This document shows, one piece after another, positions 1 to 12,797 of a DNA stretch of 28,527 nucleotides. The notes under the pieces were generated by a model. That model did no database searches, had not been told where the DNA came from, and saw only the letters and a list, made by a program, of their open reading frames with translations. The DNA lies in IMG/VR virus record IMGVR_UViG_3300003322_000609, positions 1 to 28,527 of that record; one strand, 5' to 3'. The stretch comes from a virus. How positions within the stretch are numbered: the first letter of the stretch is position 1; each line of letters begins with the position of its first letter. Both the position numbers and the translations under genes were made by a program.

Positions 1-112
1 GAAACCGGAACCGAAACCGGAACCGGAACCGAAACCGTCACCGAAACCGTCACCGAAACCGTCACCGAAACCGGAACCGAAACCAGAACCGTCACCGGAA
101 CCGGAACCGGAA
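1..112. repeat. Hexanucleotide tandem repeat array
   Basis: About 18 imperfect 6-bp units built from CCGGAA, CCGAAA and CCGTCA on the + strand. The units differ only in positions that set one codon per hexamer, so in one minus-strand frame they give Gly followed by Ser, Phe or Asp. Such an array can change length by slippage in whole dipeptides without breaking the frame. It reaches the left edge, so its full length is unknown. Confidence 0.85.
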
Positions 113-126
113 CTTATGCTTTCCAT
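1..126 (-). CDS. Gly-X dipeptide-repeat protein, 5' part only
   Basis: This gene starts at ATG 126, inside the last codons of the DUF6948-like gene and in another frame, and stays open to the left edge. The visible 42 residues are MESISS followed by 18 Gly-X pairs in which X is only Ser, Asp or Phe (for example GSGSGDGSGFGSGF). The DNA is an imperfect hexamer array of GGTTCC, GGTTTC and GGTGAC units. AAGGG lies about ten bases before the ATG and could act as a ribosome binding site. Seen: an uninterrupted frame with strictly alternating Gly and overlap with the preceding gene. The function is unknown; low-complexity Gly-rich chains of this sort are usually flexible or self-associating. Alternatively the array is a non-coding minisatellite. 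The C-terminus is outside the window. Confidence 0.55.
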   Translation of the reverse strand, partial: MESISSGSGSGDGSGFGSGFGDGFGDGFGDGFGSGSGFGSGF

Positions 127-479
127 TCTTTTACGCCCTTAATTGATCCATATGCCTTTTGGGTTACTGGCAAAATCTCAATCCATTGCAAAATGACTGA
201 CTTTACTTCAGCAGGAAATTTACAGTTATGCGGTTTAGAGACACCATCTATCGATAATTGCGAAAGTGATGCAGCTCCATCCCAATACCATATCCGGCGA
301 GCATTTGTGAGAGTTATTTCTATTCCCTCCTTTTTGTCTAAGAACCCAGCAAAAACTCCCGCGTCTCTAGTCCTAACAAGAACATAGTTATCCTTGTATT
401 CATGTGTTGATCCAGCCTCCGAACCTTTTGGTACATATGTGATGCCCTTGATCACGATTTCGTCTATTTTAGTTTCCAT
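114..479 (-). CDS. DUF6948-like phage protein
   Basis: A 121-residue soluble protein. The central part (about residues 31-75) reads YVLVRTRDAGVFAGFLDKKE, then LTNARRIWYWDGAASLSQL, and the C-terminal part has CKFPAEVKSV and SIKGVKEW. I recognise this arrangement as the DUF6948 family of small phage and prophage proteins, from memory of the conserved words rather than a search. Function is unknown; the Trp/Tyr-rich core looks like a compact beta domain. The start ATG at 479 lies just before the stop of the previous small gene, so translation is probably coupled. The next gene begins within its last codons. Confidence 0.8.
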   Translation of the reverse strand: METKIDEIVIKGITYVPKGSEAGSTHEYKDNYVLVRTRDAGVFAGFLDKKEGIEITLTNARRIWYWDGAASLSQLSIDGVSKPHNCKFPAEVKSVILQWIEILPVTQKAYGSIKGVKEWKA

Positions 480-645: not shown

Positions 646-814
646 TACTGATTTCTCCGTCTATAATGTGAATCCCGTCTAACATTACGATATTTCCGAT
701 ACGCTTCCGGACCTCTGATCCAATTATTATTTTCACAGGCTTGCTTCCTGAAACCTTTTCATGTACTAGTATTGCTTTCCTGATATTGCTTAAATCTTTT
801 TCGATTGCTTTCAT
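617..814 (-). CDS. Hypothetical protein (65 aa)
   Basis: A small protein beginning MKAIEKDLSNIRKAILVHEK, with an amphipathic N-terminal helix followed by alternating hydrophobic stretches (VKIIIGSEV, IVMLDGIHIID) that suggest a small alpha/beta fold. The start at 814 shares an ATGA overlap with the stop of the membrane-protein gene upstream. No family recognised. The hydrophobic stretches are too short for membrane spans. Confidence 0.6.
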   Translation of the reverse strand: MKAIEKDLSNIRKAILVHEKVSGSKPVKIIIGSEVRKRIGNIVMLDGIHIIDGEISNGEAYPTFI

Positions 815-1623
815 ACAAAAGATAATTCCTCCATGAATGGAAACGGAAGAGAGGGCGAATCATCTTGGTATTTTCTTTTCTTGGATGCTATATGAACAGT
901 TTTGCGCCCAGGTTTGGATTGCTCTATGATTTCAGTCTTAGAATATTCGGATGACATATCGCTGGAATCTGAAGGTGGCTCATCCGAATCGTCAGAATGA
1001 TCTAATTCTATTTTCTCAACGGATTCTCTAAAGGTAAATCCGCTCTTTTTTAATATATCTTGAATCGAATTATCAAAATTAATTTTTCTGTCGTAATTGT
1101 AGAGATCGGAAATCTTGTGAGATACGATATAGTTCAAGATAGGAACACATATTCCTAATACTACAGCGACTAAAATAAGATGCCAAAAATAAAGGGAGAA
1201 TTCTCGCTGGTTTCTTATCTCTGAATTCCTAAGCATGATATTTTCATTTTCGATATCTATTCTCGCAGTCTCTTTTTTCATTAGAGTATCATAAGTTTCT
1301 TTCCCGGTCCATGCCTGACGCCTGTCCCATTTCGGATATTCCAATAATTTCTCTGCCTGGTTCTCAGAATCATGTTTCTTGAATTCGGACTGAAGTGGAG
1401 ATATAAAACTAGCTAGTGAAAGGATAATACAAAGAAGTGTTGCCCACCGACTGGACCATCTATATCCATAAAACGCAAGATAGAATACGATCGAAACACA
1501 AAGAAAGGCGCTTGCCCATGCGGCCCATGAGTTTTTCGTAACGATAACATAAAAATCATGAAGTCGGAAAGATTCGGCGACCGAAAGAGTCAAAAGCACT
1601 ATGATATGGAACGCATATTTCAT
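811..1623 (-). CDS. Multi-pass membrane protein of unknown function
   Basis: A 270-residue protein with about four hydrophobic segments at residues 4-18, 32-54, 60-77 and 142-167. A charged helical stretch (about 80-140, rich in Glu, Lys and Arg) lies between the third and fourth. The C-terminal 90 residues are soluble, with an acidic Ser/Asp-rich part (SDDSDEPPSDSSD) followed by basic KKRK. It resembles no family I know. It lies after two DNA-binding proteins and a palindrome, a position where temperate phages often carry superinfection-exclusion or lysogeny-associated membrane proteins; that role is only an inference from position. Confidence 0.65.
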   Translation of the reverse strand: MKYAFHIIVLLTLSVAESFRLHDFYVIVTKNSWAAWASAFLCVSIVFYLAFYGYRWSSRWATLLCIILSLASFISPLQSEFKKHDSENQAEKLLEYPKWDRRQAWTGKETYDTLMKKETARIDIENENIMLRNSEIRNQREFSLYFWHLILVAVVLGICVPILNYIVSHKISDLYNYDRKINFDNSIQDILKKSGFTFRESVEKIELDHSDDSDEPPSDSSDMSSEYSKTEIIEQSKPGRKTVHIASKKRKYQDDSPSLPFPFMEELSFV

Positions 1624-6354: not shown

Positions 6355-6957
6355 CTACCATCCTGTTTTCAAATATTCCTGAATACGCTTATCAATCCAA
6401 TATCTTTGAACCATCTTTAAAAAAATATCCATCGCTGCCGGATTGCTTACAGACTTCAAGGAGTATCCTGTTATTTGTTTTTCGAGAACTAATATATAGT
6501 ATTTATTTTTTAGAGTTTTATAAATTCCTAGATCCCTAGCTGCATAATCATACCCAGCGCACTGGAGAGCGTGAATATAGGGCTTTGCGTAAGTTCGCTT
6601 GAGATCCACTATTCCCTTTTCAAACAATAGATCTAATGTTCCTCCATAGATTGGAGATCGCGAAAATACAGTTAATTCACAATCAACCAATGCACCAAGA
6701 TGGGGAAAACTTTCATCGATGAATAGTTTAAAATTTTCGATATAATGCTCATATCCAGGTTTTATTTTTTTTGTTTTTATATAAAGCTGGACCGCATGAT
6801 GGTTTTCTTGTCCTTCCCTTCTCCATTGTTCCATCATTTCTTCAGTAAAATGAAGAGGGAAGTCCATCGGCAGCAATTCCGTTACAGATGGAATTTTGAT
6901 CCCATCTCTTGTGTATGTATGCTCGTATGGATCGAATTCAAATTTTGGAATATGCAC
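6355..6957 (-). CDS. PD-(D/E)XK exonuclease, partner of RecT
   Basis: A 200-residue protein with the core of the Cas4/RecB/YqaJ-type nuclease fold: Glu94 (CELTVFS), Asp109 in YGGTLDLLFE, then IVDLKR with Asp118 and Lys120, and the QxxxY helix LQCAGYDYA (Gln132). These are the metal-binding and catalytic residues of PD-(D/E)XK nucleases. The gene begins at GTG 6957 (after GAGG) and overlaps the recT-like gene. In such pairs the exonuclease makes 3' single strands on which the annealing protein loads. It is about the length of a minimal phage exonuclease. Confidence 0.85.
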   Translation of the reverse strand: MHIPKFEFDPYEHTYTRDGIKIPSVTELLPMDFPLHFTEEMMEQWRREGQENHHAVQLYIKTKKIKPGYEHYIENFKLFIDESFPHLGALVDCELTVFSRSPIYGGTLDLLFEKGIVDLKRTYAKPYIHALQCAGYDYAARDLGIYKTLKNKYYILVLEKQITGYSLKSVSNPAAMDIFLKMVQRYWIDKRIQEYLKTGW

Positions 6958-7897
6958 TTATGGCCTCTTTCTCAAAGGACTTCAAAATAGACTTTCCGAT
7001 TTCCATGATGTCAGGAGGATGCTTCGCCTTGGTCCACTCCTCTGTTCTTCTTGCGATTTCCTTTTGAATTTCTTCTAAGTTTGTATCTGGAACACCTATC
7101 GGAATGATCTCCAATGCTTTCCTGAGCATTTGCACTCGTTTATCCTCTTCTCCATTAGGATTTTCTGGGAGAGTTTCTATGTCTATGTAAGGACGGACAA
7201 TCTTATATCCGAATTCGTTCGAATCCTCTATCTCGGAGGCTATGTTTACCTCTGGAGAAAGATCTAATGTTTTACATAATTTCTTAAGGACTGTTTTTTG
7301 CCATTGATCAGCTTCCCATTTTATCCAAGGAGAATCATTCGAATCCAAAGATTTCGACATATTTTTGACGGCCAAGACTTCTTCTTGAGTCATTACCTTG
7401 AATAAAGGCTCCGATTTTCCTTTCAATTTCGCAATAGCATATGCTCCTATAAGATCACCTCGATCTCCAGTTAAAGGCTTACGGTGTTTTATATACGGAG
7501 TTGTACCTTCCTCTGATTCGAAAGTATCGTTTTTGCGAATGACCTCCGCCTTGATCGACTCTAATCCATTACGCATAGCTAAATTTATATAGCCCTTGTA
7601 TCCTGGCATGAACTGACATTCTTTTTGCTTTGTTTTAGAATTAAAAAATGGAATAAAGTACGCATGCCCAAGAATTGGATCGGGAGATAGTTTGAGAGAT
7701 GCGCAATCAAGTATAGATATTATAATTGAAGAGCGAGAGCATTCGAGCAGCTTTTCCTTTGTCTGTCGCACTACTAACTGAAAATATTTTTCTACTGGTA
7801 TTTCGGATTTTTTACCCAAAAGATCTTCAATTGCCGGAAGATAAGAACGTATGTCCCTTTCGATTTGATCTGCGATTTCTTTTTTAGATTGTGCCAT
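6938..7897 (-). CDS. recT: RecT-family single-strand annealing protein
   Basis: A 319-residue protein with the characteristic RecT core: DCASLKLSPDPILGHAYFIP, then CQFMPGYKGYINLAMRNG, AEVIRKNDTF and GDLIGAYAIAKLKG, followed by the Trp-rich WEADQWQKTVLKKLCKTLDLSP. RecT proteins bind single strands and promote annealing and strand invasion during phage recombination. The charged C-terminal 80 residues vary in the family. It starts at ATG 7897, after GGAG, and its end overlaps the exonuclease gene. Confidence 0.95.
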   Translation of the reverse strand: MAQSKKEIADQIERDIRSYLPAIEDLLGKKSEIPVEKYFQLVVRQTKEKLLECSRSSIIISILDCASLKLSPDPILGHAYFIPFFNSKTKQKECQFMPGYKGYINLAMRNGLESIKAEVIRKNDTFESEEGTTPYIKHRKPLTGDRGDLIGAYAIAKLKGKSEPLFKVMTQEEVLAVKNMSKSLDSNDSPWIKWEADQWQKTVLKKLCKTLDLSPEVNIASEIEDSNEFGYKIVRPYIDIETLPENPNGEEDKRVQMLRKALEIIPIGVPDTNLEEIQKEIARRTEEWTKAKHPPDIMEIGKSILKSFEKEAISAYSKI

Positions 7898-11639: not shown

Positions 11640-12797
11640 TTAATACCAGATTATTACAGCACCAGCTGCGCCTGCTCCGCCTGCGGATGATCCATTAGAA
11701 CCAGCCAATGCAGACCCAGAGCCACCACCACCACCATAGGGTCTTCCAGTGCCACCACTATTTATTCCACTGGCTCCACCTAGACCGCCTGGGCCTCCAC
11801 CATTGGAGCCTCCTTTGGCCATAGTAGTACTACTAGACGATGTATTTGAGAATGAAAATCCAGGTGAACCAGCACCAAGACCTCCATTCAAGTCGCCACT
11901 ACTGCCTGCTCCACTTGCTCCTCCGGCAAATCCTAAATTTCCTGCGGCCCCACCGCCACCGCCAGAAGCAGAGCAATATGCGCCGAATGAAGAAGTCCCT
12001 CCAGCGCCTCCGCTAGTGGTTCCTGCTGGATTCCCGGCAGTCCCAGCAGCACCAACTGTAATAGAAATATTGTCTCCAGGGGTCAGGCCAGTAATGCGTT
12101 TTTCCGCAATCCCGCCGCCGCCGCCGCCGCCGCCGACCTCAATCGCATCATCCGTAGCAGAACTAGTAGAGCTGCCACCACCACCACCGCCACCTATAAC
12201 TCTTACATAACATTGAGTTACTCCAGCGGGAACTGTCCAAGTTCCTGAGGATGTAAAAAGCTGTATTCTGGGGATAGCATTCAAAATGTTCCCAGATAAA
12301 GTCAGGTCTCCTGAGATATTTATATTCGCCTCAGCATTAATATTTCCAGTTGTATTGATATCGCCTAGGACATTCAAATTTTCTTCTATTGTTAGATCAC
12401 CAGGAATAGTTTCGTCTGCCAATATTCCCGCTATATTGTCAGAATGAATGACTGCACCAAGCCCCCAATAATCAACGATGATGTCTTCGCCAGCTTGCGC
12501 AGAATTACATTCCACAAATCCAGTTGCGAAATAGGTAGGTTCATCATAATCAACTACATATTGAAGAGAAGATGGGGCCTGGTTACGGCTTGTTTCGGTG
12601 AGAAGAGTTTGGGCAGAGTTATTTAATTTAACAATGATAGGAGTCCCAGTCACTCCATTGAATACTGGAGCTTCTTTTAAATAAAATCCCCAGGTATTAT
12701 TATCATCATGAAACTCTATAGTATAGATTTCGGAAAGGATCTGAACTGGATACCGTTGACCGTCCCTAGGCCTAACTCTCCAATTTTTAAACGCCAT
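11640..12797 (-). CDS. Tail fibre with polyglycine receptor-type domain
   Basis: A 385-residue protein. The N-terminal ~115 residues resemble the next fibre. Residues ~130-170 hold beta-helix-like repeats (DINTTGNINAEANINISGDL). Then QLFTSSGTWTVPAGVTQCYV opens a glycine-rich domain with runs of seven and eight Gly and ends with GGAGAAGAVIIWY. This opening and ending are typical of phage glycine-rich tip domains, in which Gly runs form packed polyglycine-II helices and variable loops between them bind receptors. The Gly runs are coded by GGT/GGC triplet repeats that could change length. Complementary-strand frames here (proline-rich) are artefacts of this composition. Confidence 0.85.
   Translation of the reverse strand: MAFKNWRVRPRDGQRYPVQILSEIYTIEFHDDNNTWGFYLKEAPVFNGVTGTPIIVKLNNSAQTLLTETSRNQAPSSLQYVVDYDEPTYFATGFVECNSAQAGEDIIVDYWGLGAVIHSDNIAGILADETIPGDLTIEENLNVLGDINTTGNINAEANINISGDLTLSGNILNAIPRIQLFTSSGTWTVPAGVTQCYVRVIGGGGGGGSSTSSATDDAIEVGGGGGGGGIAEKRITGLTPGDNISITVGAAGTAGNPAGTTSGGAGGTSSFGAYCSASGGGGGAAGNLGFAGGASGAGSSGDLNGGLGAGSPGFSFSNTSSSSTTMAKGGSNGGGPGGLGGASGINSGGTGRPYGGGGGSGSALAGSNGSSAGGAGAAGAVIIWY
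12112..12135. repeat. (CCG)8 trinucleotide repeat inside the fibre gene
   Basis: Eight perfect CCG units on the + strand, read on the minus strand as a run of eight glycines after GluVal. Shorter CCA/CCG runs encode the other Gly tracts of the same domain (around 11722-11736, 12174-12194). Slippage by whole triplets would add or remove glycines without a frameshift. Confidence 0.9.

Follow-up and report, generated by a model that had tools for sequence, protein, structure and literature searches.

Phages of very different bacteria carry a two-gene cassette in which a small protein of the DUF6948 family, predicted to adopt an Sm-like fold, is followed by an overlapping gene for a peptide with glycine at every second residue (Gly-X). 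The pair was recognised at the edge of a virus record of 28,527 bases, the whole of which is called the window here. The explanation that we favour, tentatively and at somewhat less than even confidence, is a coupled early cassette of an Sm-like protein and a hypervariable, flexible and multivalent Gly-X partner, whose function we infer. If this is right, a cassette common to tailed phages of very different bacteria has gone without a name, and in it an Sm-like protein is joined to an extremely variable coding repeat with the variation limited to two bases in six. It would also mean that recombination can diversify a protein while the silent bases are kept uniform.

The Gly-X gene at the edge of the record

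The 5' part of a (Gly-X)n gene with X = Ser, Phe or Asp, identified as an open reading frame and by its homologous genes, occupies positions 1..126 on the minus strand and runs off the record. It starts with ATG at 126-124 and encodes 42 amino acids, namely MESISS and then GSGSGDGSGFGSGFGDGFGDGFGDGFGSGSGFGSGF, i.e. 18 Gly-[Ser/Phe/Asp] pairs, the frame being still open at the record's end. The underlying hexamer array GGT-NN-Y (3..113, minus strand; 18 units, or 18.5 copies of a 6-mer at positions 3-113 according to Tandem Repeats Finder) uses GGT for glycine in 18/18 units and TCC, TCT, GAC or TTC as partner codon. It is the sole long GGYNNY run in the window, the next one, situated in a glycine-rich gene, having 4 units. 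The frame is out of phase with the DUF6948 gene (114..479, minus strand, 121 aa; Pfam PF22253, structural model and fold matches) and its start codon overlaps the DUF6948 stop by 13 nt (114..126, minus strand), which is the commonest arrangement in the family. A Shine-Dalgarno-like AAGGG (136..140, minus strand) 9 nt before the ATG lies within the DUF6948 coding sequence and is thus not independent evidence. The N-terminus MESISSG resembles that of the short forms described below, so that the window gene is probably a short form of which the record holds only 18 units.

The original prediction had described an overlooked frame which starts at 126 inside the DUF6948 gene, out of phase with it, and in which an unchanged GGT alternates strictly with variable codons for Ser, Asp or Phe from a 6-bp repeat; all of this was borne out. 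Its extent of 1-126 is correct for the gene but not for the repeat, which covers about 3-113, and nothing in the evidence indicates that the window's phage is a prophage, as its wording had implied. It missed the predicted Sm-like fold of the partner, the wide recurrence of the pair and the scrambling of the variable positions between near-identical phages.

The head genes of the window's phage are of lambda type (GpA terminase, lambda-family portal, S49 peptidase); they and a RecT gene share the minus strand. The RecT annealase gene (6938..7897, minus strand; Pfam PF03837) belongs to the early region on the same strand as the pair and would be a candidate driver of array recombination. A predicted 270-aa protein (811-1623, minus strand) matches phrog_9586 (unknown function, E=1.5e-65), its match to a mucolipin domain being weak and sub-threshold. 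A long ORF at 11749-12210 (plus strand) opposite the glycine-rich gene (11640-12797, minus strand) is probably a shadow frame. No close relatives of the phage were found via the 270-aa neighbour, nor by comparison of 8 kb of its DNA with phage records.

Distribution of the gene pair

DUF6948 relatives were sampled from 72 loci of viral contigs and 12 of genomes (84 in all). A strict array, defined by glycine at every second residue, X from a fixed set, the same strand and a position close downstream, follows DUF6948 directly in 72/84 loci. Among the 12 that fail this filter five have arrays with unusual X residues (L018, L019, L042, L066, L082) and six have short or degenerate Gly-alternating tracts (L031, L033, L057, L069, L079, L080); just one DUF6948 locus (L051; 1/84) is without any array. 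The original prediction had proposed to look for the same gene after other DUF6948 genes, and the Gly-X frame is supported by this outcome. A scan for the array pattern only yielded at least 120 loci, and in 69 of the 120 listed DUF6948 lies just upstream. Many of those without DUF6948 are truncated at a contig edge or at the end of the fetched piece, or are poly-Gly-Ser or poly-Gly-Ala stretches of other kinds. In six others (L104, L118, L122, L135, L141, L156) the upstream gene is DUF6948-like (RAVVVVDRGWIFAGD...VFKWES) with weak profile support, and mixed arrays without a DUF6948-like partner also exist (L139, L147, L179). Chance or artefact as the source of the observation was rejected on the recurrence in DUF6948 loci and on the reading-frame evidence given below.

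The number of genes per locus varies. Five consecutive Gly-X genes, each with the tail PNLTSAGATVVEE, follow one DUF6948 gene in L127:1719-2929; two Gly-X genes are present in L002, L021, L034, L041 and L073, and the DUF6948 gene is doubled in L002. Since contigs often stop within an array (among others at window position 1 and in L113, L119, L129, L142 and L161), assemblies probably under-report Gly-X genes. Apart from early recombination and replication genes, which adjoin Gly-X genes in several phages, no other recurrent neighbour gene was found in the fetched loci. Both the window and several cultured phages have genes for RecT/Erf-type annealases close to the cassette. A search of the open-access literature for DUF6948 found nothing, and no description of the gene pair as a system was found there either (subscription papers lay outside the scope).

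Evidence for translation and for selection on the protein

Three features of the Gly-X genes show selection on translation: the position of the start, the in-frame stops and the C-terminal domain of the long forms. ATG is the start codon in 130/139 genes, and by far the commonest start among the 139 pairs, shared by the window gene, precedes the end of the DUF6948 stop codon by exactly 13 nt. An in-frame stop occurs no more than 3 codons after the array in 68/102 short forms, vs 15/102 for each of the other frames. In the long forms (about 210-280 aa), whose N-terminus is usually a motif of the kind MEALESEIKRFLAIS, unlike the short-form N-terminus of the window gene, the frame runs on into a conserved domain of ~155 residues.

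The side chains tell the same story. In the loci selected by DUF6948, X is Ser (39%), Tyr (29%), Asp (21%) or Phe (3%) with little else, Ala, Asn, Thr and Glu being rare, and the X codon is essentially K-M-Y, giving Tyr, Asp or Ser. Tyr and Phe are anticorrelated across arrays (rho -0.34, p 4e-5) while the share of aromatics stays constant (about 0.31 where Phe is abundant, 0.33 in the other loci), and in the window, L035 and L047 Phe has replaced Tyr wholesale. Asp and an aromatic residue are both present in 137/137 arrays; Ser is absent from seven, some of which have Asn instead. This conserved chemistry, i.e. the Tyr/Phe exchange and the three side-chain classes, therefore indicates selection at the protein level, and judged from the genes themselves it is well supported that Gly-X is a selected protein. 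Both options offered by the original prediction have thus gained ground: selection on the peptide through the fixed start, the in-frame stop, the Tyr/Phe exchange and the conserved in-frame domain of the long forms, and expansion of a coding repeat through array lengths which change in multiples of 6 nt. Homologues that lack the frame and show repeats not in multiples of three, which would have spoken against it, did not occur.

Predicted structures

The DUF6948 protein of the window scores 91 bits against Pfam PF22253 (cutoff 27, E=5.5e-26), and its AlphaFold2 model has a pLDDT of 93.3. The matches listed by Foldseek for this model are Sm/LSm chains of spliceosomal and archaeal origin, with a probability of mostly 1.00 and E ~0.01, and VIA-align gave Z up to 6.5, typical matches having 56-68 residues aligned at 1.8-2.7 A; these scores (Foldseek E ~0.01, Z ~6.5) are below the level that is safe alone, and RNA binding does not follow from a common fold. 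An Sm-like fold is hence a prediction from the model, and DUF6948 probably binds nucleic acid as far as the fold is a guide. A profile search of PDB sequences gave no sequence match to solved Sm proteins, which diverge strongly.

The C-terminal domain of the long forms was modelled with a pLDDT of 95. It has no match in Pfam, NCBIfam or PHROG and no confident structural match; dsRBD-like and EF-hand-like structural matches were weak and were not trusted. The same domain is joined to a BspA-type LRR in Riemerella phage CRP6 (L222:1794-2402), where it is annotated as 'ribonuclease inhibitor', and in Dulem virus 31 (L223:1425-2423) it is attached to an 11-copy SG[DY][YS]A[QK]LAS repeat whose copies differ almost exclusively in their D/Y, Y/S and Q/K codons. 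Dulem virus 31 (PP511318.1) is filed under Microviridae, a classification which looks wrong for a record of 35.8 kb with 76 features.

Variation of the arrays

The pair is present in the Ymer genus of cultured Pectobacterium phages, where both products are annotated as hypothetical proteins. Gly-X genes of this genus measure 162, 204, 222, 252, 258 and 270 nt and always differ by multiples of 6. Between Ymer and Amona the flanks have 0/830 nt mismatches upstream and 0/909 nt downstream (over a longer comparison, a 15.8-kb block is 96.7% identical), yet alignment of the interior unit strings is no better than that of shuffled strings, as also holds for the other pairs of the genus. In Sabo and Setonix (L214, L215), compared with L211, the sequence right after the Gly-X gene departs from what the rest of the genus has there, as though recombination had joined different sequences at the array.

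The silent positions behave differently. The Gly codons of the Ymer-genus DUF6948 genes differ in 46/168 pairwise comparisons, whereas the arrays have GGC almost throughout; over all loci the array Gly codon reaches a median purity of 1.0, against the use of all four Gly codons in DUF6948 genes. The majority pattern is GGY-NN-Y in 126/139 arrays, and GGG is the majority codon in ten. Silent deviations cluster at the outermost unit, mainly at the 3' end. Translational codon preference was rejected as the cause of this uniformity, because the array Gly codon is the commonest of its contig in 59/104 loci only and not the favourite in the other 45/104.

L027 and L028 differ by one exact in-frame block, and L191 and L197 agree at the start of the array but not beyond, as a recombination event inside the array would leave them. 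Turnover need not be fast, since L017, L020 and L061 have identical arrays in separate metagenomes. Identical neighbouring units were observed at 0.88 of expectation. Tandem duplication and deletion plus mutation alone (simple slippage) yielded, in simulation, either silent sites that were not pure or an excess of identical neighbours. A simulation of misregistered recombination among the arrays of a population, with selection for all three side-chain classes, reproduced the pattern (median purity 1.0 at a low share of mutation; neighbour ratios 0.8-1.05). Both simulations are simple and demonstrate sufficiency, not proof; the recombination route is plausible because RecT/Erf-type annealases are encoded near the cassette.

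Possible functions of the cassette

In the explanation that we favour, the first gene would provide DUF6948, a small Sm-like protein which probably binds nucleic acid, and the second (Gly-X)n, with X drawn from small polar (Ser, sometimes Asn or Thr), aromatic (Tyr or Phe) and acidic (Asp) residues. The overlap of the genes probably couples the two products. Gly-X would be a flexible multivalent binding partner, with aromatic stickers and Gly/Ser/Asp spacers, that early in infection works together with the Sm-like protein and the nucleic acid bound to it; an interaction of this kind, and any consequence for host or rival phages, are suppositions of ours. Composition would outweigh unit order, and arrays of different phages may recombine out of register, probably aided by the nearby RecT/Erf annealases, whereby the unit order would be reshuffled and the hexamer scaffold kept uniform. 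Two observations speak against this explanation: frozen silent sites beside scrambled X codons could mean a role at the level of the nucleic acid, and a generic disordered linker would not require so narrow a restriction to Ser, Tyr and Asp. Cultured phages carry the cassette (phiPLPE and the Pectobacterium phages of the Ymer genus), which makes its function, expression and rate of turnover open to direct testing.

The scrambled order may instead be the very object of selection, if the succession of Tyr, Ser and Asp formed a variable binding surface, for example of a decoy or inhibitor directed against a varying protein of the host or of a rival phage. Such a recognition protein would accord with a unit order that agrees only as far as chance predicts among Ymer-genus phages whose flanks are identical, with a K-M-Y codon that gives Tyr, Asp and Ser, and with the long-form C-terminal domain being carried also by other repeat modules (the LRR of CRP6, the array of Dulem virus 31). 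The Gly-X side chains moreover parallel the small paratope alphabet of synthetic antibodies, for which Tyr, Ala, Asp and Ser alone suffice (PMC3498902). This alternative is nevertheless rather unlikely, as recombination and selection on composition alone reproduce the pattern, alternating glycine offers no obvious stable surface and the arrays of L017, L020 and L061 are identical in separate metagenomes. That Gly-X forms a silk-like beta sheet or a surface fibre, in line with the surface repeat put forward by the original prediction, appears quite improbable; its strict period-2 glycine is typical of silk-type sheets, but in several phages the genes lie near those for recombination and replication, the listed N-termini show no signal sequence by eye, and many X residues are Asp.

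The array could also act as RNA, i.e. as a noncontiguous guide or ligand of the form GGY-NN-Y which is held by the Sm-like protein in the manner of a VIPR vrRNA, translation being incidental or a second function. The majority pattern of 126/139 arrays recalls the GGY/NN of VIPR (PMC13142463), the silent sites are frozen and the NN scrambled while the DUF6948 Gly codons of the Ymer genus vary (46/168), the array Gly codon is the commonest of its contig in 59/104 loci only, and the predicted fold of the partner is of an RNA-binding type. We regard this as improbable, given that NN is ~90% TC, TA or GA and so not free, that the Phe-for-Tyr exchange and the in-frame stops point to a protein, that ten arrays have majority GGG and that the DUF6948 model is not RRM/RAMP-like. 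Nor was a general structured tail seen: downstream stretches fold with z below -2 in 17/94 cases vs 5/94 controls, with a median of -0.27. Gapped matches to the arrays, scanned for with RNA-guided binding of double-stranded DNA as in VIPR in view, showed no consistent excess over shuffles across the fetched loci (3.9 Mb on both strands), a pool outside which likely targets would lie; 1/12 settings (8 units, skip 5) gave 45 matches vs 30 +- 5. The array might even be read twice, as RNA forming a noncontiguous guide or ligand on an Sm-like ring, with an independently evolved VIPR-like logic, and as protein forming the Gly-X partner; the frozen GGY..Y would then serve the RNA and the three side-chain classes the protein, a combination to which we give little credence. 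Least probable of all, and largely refuted, is a non-coding repeat or an assembly artefact. Arrays are indeed often found at contig ends, and for the phiPLPE repeat (KMGCCG)35 a role as attachment site has been speculated on (PMC3391216), but such a site was rejected on the reading-frame evidence, C-terminal domains continue in frame, and the same gene is present in finished genomes of cultured phages.

Comparison with known systems

In VIPR a phage RAMP protein is paired with a non-coding RNA of GGY/NN pentamers (PMC13142463, preprint 2026). Common to both systems is a phage-encoded array with a conserved GGY and a hypervariable dinucleotide beside a gene for a small protein of nucleic-acid-binding type. 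However, Vipr is a RAMP with RRM core, G-loop and thumb, whereas DUF6948 is predicted to be Sm-like; vrRNA repeats are 5 nt long, non-coding, 9-16 units in number and provided with a structured tail, whereas Gly-X arrays are coding and comprise about 20-45 units of 6 nt. Their dinucleotides are mostly TC, TA and GA (Ser, Tyr and Asp codons ~90%) and not all dinucleotides. Searching for YNNGG-type pentamers, no GGYNN run of at least 5 units was found in the window and none of at least 7 in the other fetched loci scanned. Membership in VIPR was thus rejected on the period of 6, the restricted alphabet, the coding signatures and a DUF6948 model that is not RRM-like. As regards diversity-generating retroelements, which use a reverse transcriptase and a template repeat to vary adenine positions, the variable positions are mostly T/G and then A/C, not any base, and the annotation of 22 kb of either Ymer or Amona lists no reverse transcriptase.

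With the Sm/LSm/Hfq superfamily DUF6948 shares a predicted meander of three strands, an insertion and a long strand, and Sm-type structural neighbours are listed for it; its conserved insertion WYWDGAASLSQL is absent from Sm motifs. Low-complexity domains rich in aromatic residues, Gly and Ser are known from FUS ([G/S]Y[G/S]) and the FG nucleoporins. Gly-X resembles them in its aromatics spaced by Gly, Ser and Asp, but differs in having glycine at every second residue, a homogenised hexamer array and a phage gene as its source. The arrays are similar to minisatellite variant repeats in that few unit types are reshuffled and the outermost units are unlike the interior, but duplication and deletion within the array alone do not fit them.

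The only earlier notice of the array found in the literature searched is the repeat (KMGCCG)35 of Iodobacter phage phiPLPE, which was published as a possible attachment site with no coding frame noted (PMC3391216). It is the same kind of array and directly follows the DUF6948 gene of phiPLPE; an unannotated Gly-X ORF (L207:1161-1409) lies in this repeat between gene 84 and an HNH gene. If the explanation favoured here is right, the published repeat is explained by a Gly-X gene.
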